In this document: positions 3,343-25,867 of the stretch, piece after piece
Layout: each line of letters begins with the position of its first letter
Position numbering within the stretch: the stretch's first letter is position 1
NCBI GenBank assembly: GCA_947170225.1
Contig: CAMVSQ010000009.1
Span: 1-37,404, forward strand
DNA from: an uncultured bacterium
Lineage (GTDB): Bacteria; Patescibacteriota; Gracilibacteria; Absconditabacterales; Absconditicoccaceae
Direction of reading: 5' to 3'
DNA: 37,404 bases
Position numbers and translations under genes: made by a program
The notes under the pieces: model-generated
Seen by the model: only the letters and a program-made list of their open reading frames with translations
Database searches by the model: none
Told to the model about the DNA's origin: nothing

Positions 3343-3936
3343 TTATCCAAAAACACATTCTCAATCAACAATTTCAGCTAATTCTGTTTCTTCCTCAACT
3401 CACTCCAACATCATCATGCATCTATTAAAATATGTATTTCCATCTTTTCAACAAACTAAATCTTCTCAAGCAGATAAACATGATTCATAAATTGCATCAT
3501 ACTCTTCAACTTCATCTTCATCATAATAAAACTCTCATTTGCTACAATTTCAGACAACTAAATCATCAAAATAACAAAAGCTATTGTCATCAAAAGTACA
3601 AACCTCCTGCTCTTCTCCTCACTCTAACCAAATTTGATAAGTTCATCAATTTTCTTCACAATAAACAGATGGTGGCATATCTCACTCATATTCGTATTCA
3701 TATCACAATAAATCACATCCACCATCCTCAATATCAAACATATAACAAAATTCATCATTTGGCAAAATACAAATTGCCTCTCAATCCTCTGTCTCAGAAA
3801 TCTGACCATCAAAATCAAGACAAATCTGCTCTGCACTTTTTTCCATTCAGTCTCAATCCATTATCTGAAACTTATCACATCATGTAAAAACTAAACAAGC
3901 ACAAAACAACAAAATAAACAAAAAACTTTTTTTCAT
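3343..3936 (-). CDS. Lipoprotein with two DUF333-like units and a Kazal-like domain, 197 aa
   Basis: Starts MKKSFLFILLFCACLVFTGC: a type II signal peptide with lipobox VFTGC, lipid anchor at Cys20. Then come two Cys-spaced repeats: about 37-75 (ICLDFDGQ...AICILPNDEFC...GGC) and about 89-130 (PPSVYCEENGGTY...VCTFDDNSFC...GNC). The second closely follows the DUF333 pattern (NPASVYC..NGG...C.LPDG..C...C). The end, about 157-196, reads SCLSAGEDLVCGKDGNTYFNRC and then DGEC, the Kazal serine-protease-inhibitor pattern VCG.DG.TY.N.C. It is therefore probably an outward-facing anchored protein, possibly shielding the cell from foreign proteases; that role is inference. TAA stop. The plus strand shows long open frames here that are shadows. 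Confidence 0.75.
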
Positions 3937-3961: not shown

Positions 3962-4984
3962 CTATTCCAAAATCACAATCTTTCTTCACACTTTCTGCCT
4001 TTCTCTACTATACACTTCACCAATACAAAAAAATTTCCAACCAAAAGTACTACTCCACTTTTTAATCTCCTGCTCCAAAAAATTATTTTGATTTATATAG
4101 TATGGTATTGTAAAAAGTGCCTTTGTATTATGTTCTTTCCTAGTTTTTGAGATTGTAGTAATGAATTTCTTGTACAAATCCCAAACTTGATTTTGATATT
4201 TCATTATGTCTATTTGTGTTGATTTTTCTGAAACGATTGGTCACAACCATCATTCAGAAACGACTAAAATATTACCTTGTAAAATTCAATTTGGAATTTC
4301 TTTTGTGATATCGTGTTGAAAAATTTCAAATTTTTTATCTGTATGCAATGAATTTTTCATCCACCACTCTTTATTGTTTTCCAAATGCTGAATATTGATA
4401 TCTGATCAAAAAAAATCATATCAAAAATAGTTTGCCAAAAATCATGTCGTTCCAGATCAAGCAAAAGGATCATAAATCGCAACCGGTCTTTTTTTGCAAA
4501 TTCACAATCAAATATTCAACATAATGTGTGTAAATTTCGCTGGCATCATTCCCATTTTCATGCTACGAGATGGTTTGGAAAAATCGATTTCCTCGTATAA
4601 TCAAATATTTTGATATCATTTCACAATTCCATATTTATCCTGAATTTTCACTACTTCAATTCATTTATTTTTCACTTCTTTATCAGTTTTAAATAGATCA
4701 ACTAACTTAAATCTCTTGATTCAAAACTCTTTTTTCAATTTTATTCAAAAATCTTTGTCCTTTGTTCACAAGATTTTCTGTCACTCTAATCTATTTTTTA
4801 ATCAGTCTTTATCTACTATTTCTCACCATTTAATAATTCATCACAATAGACCTAATTTCTCAACACAATCAGTTTCAAATGAAATAATGACATCATTTAA
4901 TTCTACAATATTTTTTGGTTTCACAAATTGTAATTCCATCAAGCTTATTTTTTTATTTTTACCTAATATTGCAAAATATACCAT
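3962..4984 (-). CDS. TRM11-family SAM-dependent RNA/DNA methyltransferase, 340 aa
   Basis: Residues about 185-200 read AIYDPFAGSGTTGFLANYFG, the SAM-binding motif I of the class I N-methyltransferase fold; GSDIN (about 206-210) is the acidic motif II region. NILVVSEGWLGP (about 247-258) stands where NPPY-type motif IV lies in DNA methylases; the E-G-[YW]-L-G-P version is what I know from TRM11-like tRNA guanosine methyltransferases in CPR genomes. The N-terminal half is a probable substrate-recognition region (THUMP-like, not recognised with certainty). No restriction enzyme or specificity gene lies beside it, which favours RNA over DNA as substrate. Gly is partly TGA; TAG stop. Orphan DNA methylase is the alternative. 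Confidence 0.75.
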
Positions 4985-5099
4985 AATACTCTAAACAAAT
5001 AAAAAAACAAAATCATAATACTAAAAATTCAAAGTTATTCAACAGAAAATAATAGCTTAAACAATTCCAAGTTAGATAAATTTTCAAAACAAAAAAAAA

Positions 5100-5127
5100 G
5101 ACCACTCCATGAAAACATAGCGCGGTC
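5100..5127 (-). terminator. Strong intrinsic terminator
   Basis: On the minus strand a 12-bp stem (5127-5116 with 5111-5100; one G-A mismatch and some G-U pairs) has a TTTT tetraloop and is followed by nine T. It closes the structured RNA at 5100-5421 before the methyltransferase gene at 4984. Confidence 0.8.
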
Positions 5128-5421
5128 CGCTTCTAGGTATACCTAGAGACGGGCACTCCCTTACCATATATGAGAGTTATAAAATGAAATTAATCCACAT
5201 AAAATTACAATCCCATTTTATAACTCCATACATTTTTTGATTTCAAAACTTTACTTTCAAATCAAAAAACCGTCTCTAGATTTTTCTGCATGTCCTTCAC
5301 TTGGATAAGTTACTATTCATGCACATAGCTCTAATTTGAATACAAATTTAGAAACCATGGAAAAAATCTTTCAGCTTTGGTAAACCATCCTTACGGGACA
5401 TTCACCTCTACTTTTTTGTTT
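5100..5421 (-). ncRNA. Unassigned structured RNA of about 320 nt
   Basis: Non-coding on both strands, yet it contains four perfect long-range or local pairings: 5143-5152 with 5270-5279 (CTAGAGACGG), 5174-5186 with 5214-5226 (13 bp), 5233-5243 with 5259-5269 (11 bp) and the palindrome CTAGGTATACCTAG at 5133-5146. A minus-strand promoter (TTGTAT 5455-5450, 16-bp spacer, TAAATA 5433-5428) and a strong terminator delimit it. The 5' end reads GTAGAGGTGAATGTCCCG. RNase P RNA is found elsewhere in the window (25.5 kb), and I see no tmRNA or SRP signature. The palindrome and the 10-bp long-range stem share 5143-5146, so two folds compete. Confidence 0.55.
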
Positions 5422-5427
5422 AATTTT

Positions 5428-5455
5428 TATTTACATCTTGTGTTTAAATATACAA
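5428..5455 (-). promoter_or_regulatory. Promoter of the structured RNA
   Basis: On the minus strand TTGTAT (5455-5450) and TAAATA (5433-5428) are 16 bp apart, placing the RNA start near 5421. No gene on the right reads into it: dnaB ends at 5617 and the AT-rich spacer between shows nothing else but an imperfect repeat of TTAATTGTTAAT at about 5592-5620. Confidence 0.4.
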
Positions 5456-5616
5456 ACAAAAAAAACAACAAAAATATACAAAAATACTCTAACTTTTTGT
5501 TTCCACATTATTTTAAAAACCAAGTACAATATATAGACATTTAATAAAAAAGATGATATTTTATAATAAATAATTACAAAAATCCCAAGTCTTAATTGTT
5601 AATTTATAATTGTTAA

Positions 5617-6978
5617 TTAGTATGTTCAATCATTTTTTTCTCATTTTTCAGTTTCCACAAACTTCATAATACTTGCCATAAATTTCAATTCAACTTCTCA
5701 AACTGCTCCATTTCTATTTTTTCTAACACAAACATCAGTTGCTCATTTTTTATCTGTATCTGGATCATAATAATCCTCTCTATGCAACATAATTACACTA
5801 TCCGCATCCTGCTCTATTGCTCCAGACTCCCTAAGATCACTAAGTTGTGGCTTTTTGTCTACCCTCTGCTCAACATTACGAGAAAGTTGAGACAAAGCTA
5901 TGATAGGTACTTCAAGCTCTTTTGCCAATTCTTTTAATCATCTTGAAATTTCACTGATTTCCTGAACTCTATTTCACTCATAGCTTGTTCATCTCATCAA
6001 CTGCAAATAATCTATAATTACAAGGTCCAAAGCTCATTTTTCTATTTTCAATCTCCTCAATTTTGATTTCAAAACAGGAACTGTAAGTCATCACTGATCA
6101 TCAATAAATATTTTTTTGCTACCTAACAATGAAATTGCTTCTCCCATATTTGAAAAATCCTCATTATCCAATTCTCATTTAGTGATTTTCGACATTGGAA
6201 TCTGAGAAACTTCAGCAACCATCCTATCAACAATCGACTCTGAACTCATTTCCAAAGAAAATATTGCAACCAATTTGTCCTGTTGCATTGAAACATTTGA
6301 AACCACATTTAATGCAAAAGATGTTTTTCACATAGACGGTCTTGCTGCCAGAATAATCAATTCTCAAGGCTTGAATCCTGCCAACATATCATCCAATCAC
6401 TTATATCATGAAAACACCTTTTTCTCATTTATTTTTTCAGGATTATCTATTATCGAAACATATTCCTCCACTCTCGAATTCAAAATATCAGAAATCGATT
6501 CAATTCACTCTCATGTCTGATTTTGTGTCAAATCAAATATTTTTTTCTCAATAGATTCCATGATTGAAACAGTATCATCTTGCTTATACACATCTCAAAT
6601 AATTCATTGAGAAACTTTCAAAATACTTCTCAAAATCGACTTATCTTTCACAATTTTAGAATAATCTCCACAACCAGAAGTTGATAACAAAAAAGTCGAT
6701 AAATCATACAAATAATCCATTCATCAAATATCCATCAATTTTCAATCTTTCTGCAACTGATCTCAAACAGTCACTACATCAATAGTTTTACGATCTCCCC
6801 ACAATTTTTTTACTGCAGAATAAATTGCTTGATGCTCTTTCTGATAAAAATCAGCAGGTTCCAACTTATCTGCATCATAAATCCAAATAGTTTCATTGTC
6901 CATCAAAGCTCAAGCCAAAACTCCTTTTTCAGCTTCTAGATTTTGTGGTGGTGTCTTGATATCATCCATAGTAACCAT
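5617..6978 (-). CDS. dnaB: Replicative DNA helicase DnaB, 453 aa
   Basis: The hexameric helicase that unwinds DNA ahead of the replisome. Normal length for the family. The N-terminal helical domain begins [20 protein letters not shown], the usual 'P.nleAE..vLG.ll.d'. The RecA-like domain shows [19 protein letters not shown], Walker A ARPSMGKTSFALN (near residue 215), FSLEMSSE, Walker B-type [10 protein letters not shown], and [29 protein letters not shown]. The last residues read ETEKGEKNDGTY, then TAA. Many Gly are TGA. A structured RNA gene lies downstream and a short repeat element upstream, so it appears to be transcribed alone. Confidence 0.95.
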
Positions 6979-7013
6979 AAGATAATTGAGATGAAGAATT
7001 AAAATTAAACATA

Positions 7014-7091
7014 TCATTCTGAATTTATACAGCTATGCTGTACGAAGTGAAGAATCTATTTTAAGATTCTTCGACCACTGCCTCAGAATGA
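7014..7091. repeat. Short hairpin repeat (REP-like)
   Basis: TCATTCTGA (7014-7022) and TCAGAATGA (7083-7091) bound an element with inner hairpins ACAGC/GCTGT and AAGAATCT/AGATTCTT. Elements of the form TCATTCTGA...AAGAATCT...AGATTCTT...TCAGAATGA are widespread in bacterial spacers, to my knowledge. It sits upstream of dnaB. The remainder of 6979-7274 is AT-rich with nothing recognisable. Confidence 0.6.
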
Positions 7092-25528: not shown

Positions 25529-25540
25529 ATTTTCTAATTG

Positions 25541-25867
25541 ATCTAAACTATAAGCCTGATTATGTACTATGGTGCAATATATCTAAACTATCTTGTAGAT
25601 AGTATTGTGCACTGCCCTATTTCTAGGTAAGCTTGCATCAATCACGGTTTACCCCTCATCAAACAATCTGCTTGATTGAGTAGAAGTAGCCAAAAGGCAT
25701 CTTCACGTTGCATCTTTCCTACGAATTAACTCCGCAGTAGTTTTCGTTTCTGTGGCACTTTCGTTTGCCCCCTTTCGGGGCGGTCCAGCAACCATTAGCT
25801 GCTAATCTTTTTGTGATGTCAGGACTTTCCTATCCAATTAGCTTGGATTAGCACCTTGCTTAGACAA
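25541..25867 (-). ncRNA. rnpB: RNase P RNA
   Basis: Catalytic RNA that trims the 5' end of tRNAs. The minus strand shows the conserved blocks in order: AGGAAAGTCCTGACA (P4 5' strand), CCACAGAAACGAAAACTAC, GGGGTAAACCGTGATTGATG and ATAATCAGGCTTATAG (P4 3' strand). AAGUCCUGA pairs with UCAGGCUU leaving one U bulged, as in P4 of known RNase P RNAs. Outer ends GTCTAA and TTTAGAT pair as P1. The block before the P4 3' strand reads ACATAA where ACAGAA is usual. Ends are approximate. tRNA-Trp follows at once, so the two probably share a transcript that the RNA itself may help process. Confidence 0.88.

Follow-up and report, generated by a model that had tools for sequence, protein, structure and literature searches.

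A putative lineage-specific RNA gene with mutually exclusive pairings adjoining dnaB in uncultured Absconditicoccaceae

A putative structured RNA gene adjoins dnaB in the genome of an uncultured member of the Absconditicoccaceae (assembly GCA_947170225.1), where it occupies the minus strand from about position 5434 to about position 5091 (~344 nt) of the window, that is, of the whole 37,404-nt stretch analyzed here (contig CAMVSQ010000009.1). Sequence comparison makes it probable that the gene is free-standing and lineage-specific, with a promoter to itself, and that its structured RNA, not catalogued before, has been kept in numerous species from a single group of tiny, uncultured bacteria. 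Its start at GTAAAT (5434) and the end of its U-tract (5091) are both kept in relatives. It is flanked by dnaB (5617-7017; DnaB domains by Pfam) and by a methyltransferase-like gene (3962-4984) with an N6_N4_Mtase match below the Pfam cut-off. Open reading frames overlap the RNA (95 aa in G033, 45 aa in our own genome). Elsewhere in the window, positions 3346-3936 (minus strand) encode a putative protein in which DUF333 is combined with a Kazal-type inhibitor domain and the N-terminus resembles a lipoprotein signal by eye.

The initial annotation had described 5100-5455 as holding a structured RNA of no assigned family, able to adopt two competing folds. That observation is confirmed, with the strand and extent of the RNA refined to those given above. 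The four perfect pairings on which that annotation relied are all exact, namely a 13-bp helix (5174-5186/5214-5226), an 11-bp helix (5233-5243/5259-5269), a 10-bp pairing (5143-5152/5270-5279), and the palindrome CTAGGTATACCTAG (5133-5146), the last two being mutually exclusive as claimed. Perfect helices of at least 10 bp number three in 5100-5455, compared with a mean of 0.13 in 300 dinucleotide shuffles, none of which reached three. The minus strand folds with a z score of -6.11 and the plus strand more weakly (-4.83), with 0/100 shuffles as good in either case.

Scanning with R3, which models the 84-nt promoter module from sequence alone, located homologues of the RNA in 30 of 49 whole genomes from this family, representing 9 of 22 genera; conservation in sister genomes is thus present. 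The R3 scores are separated by a gap, the strong places in the 30 genomes reaching at least 29.3 bits and all other matches at most 24.7 bits (matches of at least 29 bits were inspected). Because a strong match is absent in 19 of the 49 genomes, the RNA is not universal in the family. The RNA itself was read at the R3 places, or at R1/R2 matches for those homologues found earlier. BLASTN in relatives gave a single clear copy, in the same-genus genome G001 behind dnaB (E 7.7e-9), its other matches being short. Reading the dnaB neighborhoods of 30 genomes by eye added G030, G022, G016, and G002, and a DnaB-based search for related loci yielded one useful relative among 80 loci, "Candidatus Absconditabacteria bacterium isolate STD2_163" (L148; hereafter STD2), with the RNA 2 kb behind dnaB. 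R1, a model of the H2/H3 domain (described below) built from six homologues, scored those six at 43.6 bits or more on the same 30 loci against a background of at most 18.3 bits, and raised further homologues over the 49 family genomes. R2, a model from 17 sequences scanned over 242 genomes of the class, added G004, G071, G062, and G027; outside the family but within the class, no convincing homologue was present among the R2 matches opened. Reading of the context led to the dismissal of R1/R2 matches in a first set (G030:C4, G017, G071:C11, G011, G012) and a second set (G239, G041, G029, G043, G226, G119, G035:C11), and given these rejected matches the raw tallies of 26/49 (R1) and 53/242 (R2) are not homologue counts. 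Two exact matches of the fixed pattern AGAGACGGTTTTTT outside the genus (L072, L077) were likewise dismissed on reading, and the two viral contigs matched in a pattern scan carry matches that look coding. The RNA runs off the contig end in G003 and G018, where just an H3-like part is visible, and in G067 the promoter and the RNA are split between two contigs, each at a contig end.

The promoter lies at 5441-5468 on the minus strand and consists of a -35 element TTGTTT (5468-5463), a 16-nt spacer, and a -10-like TAAACA (5446-5441), as judged by column conservation in alignment A6 (19 homologues). The -10-like element is weak in our own genome; among relatives it is TATNNT-like. Farther upstream, A6 contains a block TGTGNTAACNAAAG-TAGAGGATT (5480-5507; TGTGGAAACAAAAAGTTAGAGTATTTTT in our own genome), which begins with TGTGNTAAC and is situated ~73 nt upstream of the start at a spacing nearly constant across the 19 aligned homologues. 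The R3 scan found no second strong copy of this block per genome, the 84-bp promoter module having a single strong copy that is sited at the RNA. A weak site resembling the promoter block, at 3890 in the window, is of low complexity. At the other end of the gene, the P6 hairpin (5099-5128) is followed by a U9 tract (5099-5091), forming an intrinsic terminator. A consensus scan gave 8 promoter-like sites against 5.5 expected and 0 terminators, and hence no support to either element; we call both because they are conserved between genera. This conserved pair suggests that the RNA is transcribed from the minus strand.

From 5' to 3', the RNA comprises an A-rich leader GUAAAYAAAA, the hairpins H1, H2, and H3, the P4 5' strand, P4a, P4b, the P4 3' strand, P5, and P6. 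H1 (5379-5406) is a variable 5' hairpin, GGUGAAUGUCC-cguaa-GGAUGGUUUACC, found in both the MFE and the centroid fold. H2 (5329-5354) has a conserved loop GUAUU(U)C (5343-5338) in the R1/R2 alignments. H3 (5287-5323) is built from an outer stem, an AGUA/GAA internal loop, an inner 4-bp stem, and a terminal loop that reads AUCC here and ACCA or ACCC in relatives. The internal loop, which we take to be sarcin-ricin-like, is seen in many homologues. In the alignment of H2 and H3 (16 distinct rows), 74.9% of the cells are paired compared with 41.9% and 47.1% when the pairing is slid by one column, in an alignment fitted to the model and hence biased towards the model pairing. The H3 inner stem is 96.9% paired with double changes at three of its four pairs, and H2 merely 57.0% paired; RNAalifold predicts the H3 inner stem only. 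Pairing of the H3 loop (UUACC) with the P4b loop (RUAA) as a pseudoknot was considered and rejected by eye, as ACC is constant and its supposed partner varies.

The 3' half of the RNA is organized around P4, a 12-bp helix between a 5' strand, X (AUCUAGAGACGG, 5270-5281), and a 3' strand, X' (CCGUCUCUAGGU, 5141-5152). It encloses P4a (5174-5226), a hairpin with the 13-bp perfect core, and P4b (5155-5177), an alternative hairpin ACUCUC-auauaugguaa-GGGAGU, the 5' arm of which is in common with P4a. At least 3 nt are in common between P4a and P4b in 13 of 22 homologues; the P4b loop has UAA as its last bases in 21 of the 22, and the P4b arms vary in sequence while the pairing is kept. X' also serves as the 5' arm of P5 (UCUAGG-uaua-CCUAGA, 5132-5147), the palindromic hairpin that excludes P4. 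This exclusive pairing is kept in homologues, the P4/P5 overlap in them being by construction, since the P5 search required at least 3 nt in common with P4. The P5 3' arm in turn overlaps the P6 terminator stem by at least 3 nt (3-6 nt) in 21 of 28 homologues, which may amount to an exclusion of the antiterminator/terminator type, and P5 is local, without overlap of P6, in our own genome and G001.

P4 and P5 both co-vary between genera. Over 28 full-length homologues (27 genomes plus STD2, leaving out G035, apparently identical to STD2, and two truncated ones), the own-strand P4 duplex has a mean of -32.0 kcal/mol, compared with -17.8 kcal/mol when strands are swapped between genera, and 0/200 draws of genus representatives (7 genera) had any permutation as low; the outcome was the same on 22 homologues. 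No swapped strand equaled the own partner in 19 of the 28, while in the other 9 some strand from another genus pairs equally well. The corresponding values for P5 are -9.3 and -5.5, and a fraction of 0.0009 of the permutations was as low. Co-variation between genera, which marks a structured RNA, is therefore found in the P4 and P5 swap tests as well as in the H2/H3 pair counts. When the bases behind P4 were shuffled, the strength of P5 was reached in 0-16 of 200 shuffles in 18 of 22 homologues (11 in our own genome), and P5 was weak by the same measure in four (G001, 36/200; G071, 116/200; STD2, 96/200; G027, 39/200). The P4 state is more stable than the P5 state in 22 of 22 homologues, by 0.9 to 20.1 kcal/mol, and given this advantage P5 may be rarely formed.

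The same energies bear on a rival reading, in which the RNA is a static ribonucleoprotein or scaffold RNA that depends on P4 and P6 alone, P5 having arisen as a by-product of folding or as a leftover from the evolution of inverted repeats. It agrees with the greater stability of P4 in every homologue compared, and with a P5 that is weak in the four homologues just named and borderline in our own genome; against it stand the co-variation of P5 between genera and its overlap with P6 in most homologues, and we consider this reading somewhat unlikely.

The chain of exclusive stems recalls trp-leader-type attenuators, which are built as a chain of 1:2, 2:3, and 3:4 hairpins. The RNA is like them in having overlapping exclusive stems that end in an intrinsic terminator, and in our own genome the next gene (3962-4984) is co-directional and 106 nt away, as would suit a cis-acting attenuator or riboswitch in which H1-H3 sense a signal and P4, P5, and P6 set termination before that gene. 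Across 17 homologues, however, the gene after the RNA differs and is convergent in 10. A cis riboswitch reading fits poorly because the downstream gene is not conserved and is often convergent; gene order largely excludes it, and we regard it as improbable. Unlike the attenuators, the RNA here forms a separate gene, its neighbors vary, no regulated gene is conserved, and its P5/P6 overlap is short and is absent in our own genome.

The neighbor that does recur is dnaB. The RNA lies within 8 kb of dnaB in 16 of the 20 genomes in which both loci were placed, and they are on different contigs in G024, G025, and G032. This proximity, and the fact that inverted repeats occur in DNA too, could be taken to mean that the locus works at the level of DNA, or belongs to the 3' end of the dnaB transcript, and is not an RNA gene. 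The RNA is nevertheless on the strand opposite dnaB in genus g4 (G030, G022, G004) and 220 kb from it in G015, and an RNA is indicated by the G-U pairs, the loop motifs, and a layout that runs from promoter to terminator. We find this reading scarcely credible.

No known RNA family accounts for the locus. Rfam 15 gave no match at the gathering threshold and, at a permissive threshold, only chance-level snoRNA, miRNA, and leader matches; over the 20 homologous loci, our own included, the single match at the RNA was a chance-level L20 leader in G027, so that nothing above chance was obtained and the initial annotation's description of the RNA as unassigned is supported. The 6S RNA model (RF00013) matched neither at the locus nor elsewhere in our own genome. 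The SRP RNA model (RF00169) matched none of the 49 family genomes, our own (G000) among them, and nothing at the locus, while 12 of 14 control genomes gave a match; SRP RNA is thus unrecognizable by this model in the family. ARAGORN found no tmRNA (RF00023) in the window, the genome's tmRNA being elsewhere (G000:C6:30236-30605, 78.8 bits). The RNase P RNA (RF00010) that had been located at 25.5 kb is confirmed as the genome's only match (25535-25867, minus strand), slightly under the Rfam cut-off (96.7 vs 100 bits); it is directly upstream of tRNA-Trp. In G005, G002, G034, and G026 (L144, L145, L146, L147), 6S-like matches below the Rfam cut-off were observed (E 4e-8 to 5e-5). A literature search over titles and abstract openings returned no paper on this RNA, and none describing a regulatory RNA in these uncultured code-25 bacteria.

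That neither 6S nor SRP RNA is matched in our own genome, and SRP RNA nowhere in the family, would suit a very divergent copy of one of these universal RNAs. Yet the Rfam matches at the RNA are at chance level in our own genome and at the 19 other homologous loci, G002 carries both the RNA and a 6S-like match, the layout differs from a single long helix with a bubble at its center, and a strong match to the RNA is absent in 19 of 49 genomes. We hold a divergent universal RNA to be very unlikely. 6S RNA is known for a conserved rearrangement. 6S RNA and Ms1 (see PMC4191392) are similar to our RNA in being free-standing bacterial RNAs of a few hundred nucleotides. Unlike 6S RNA, the RNA described here has no RF00013 match and carries two loop-motif hairpins at its 5' end. 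The P4-P6 part of the G027 homologue shows a weak likeness to the L20 leader (RF00558; 26.6 bits, E 0.46, cut-off 58.7), but this chance-level score occurs at one of 20 loci, and no ribosomal protein gene was recognized alongside in a non-systematic reading of the neighbors. ROOL, GOLLD, and OLE are larger than the ~344-nt RNA. They are alike in being free-standing ornate bacterial RNAs (see PMC12286853), whereas our RNA matches none of them in Rfam.

The comparisons show a conserved promoter module, a 5' two-hairpin domain with conserved loops (GUAUUC in H2, ACCA in H3), and a 3' domain in which P4, P5, and P6 make up a chain of exclusive or overlapping pairings. The explanation we favor, to which we give about even weight, is a trans-acting lineage-specific RNA with P4 as its default, in which capture of X would bring about strand exchange to P5. 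P4 would form once its 3' strand is transcribed, because the 5' strand is already present and P4 is the more stable; with P4 formed, P6 would fold fully, transcription would end, and a stable ~344-nt RNA would be made. If a protein or another RNA occupied X, X' would be freed to pair forward into P5, which would open P4 and, in most relatives, loosen the base of P6, so that the RNA would toggle between two states or transcription would read through. The RNA would act in trans and not on a neighbor gene, and a partner would probably bind at the H2/H3 domain.

A bolder and, to our mind, unlikely extension is that an attenuator-like chain of exclusive stems has come to regulate in trans, flipping once X is captured by a partner RNA or protein. 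It would then serve code-25 bacteria as a global RNA specific to their lineage and might, in genomes in which 6S RNA is not found, have assumed a function such as the regulation of RNA polymerase. The conserved RNA gene, with its highly specific promoter and co-varying switch, can be addressed concretely by RNA-seq, probing, and pull-down. It is unusual for a chain of attenuator type to have no gene to attenuate; if this one is functional, it would show how switches of this kind can work in trans.
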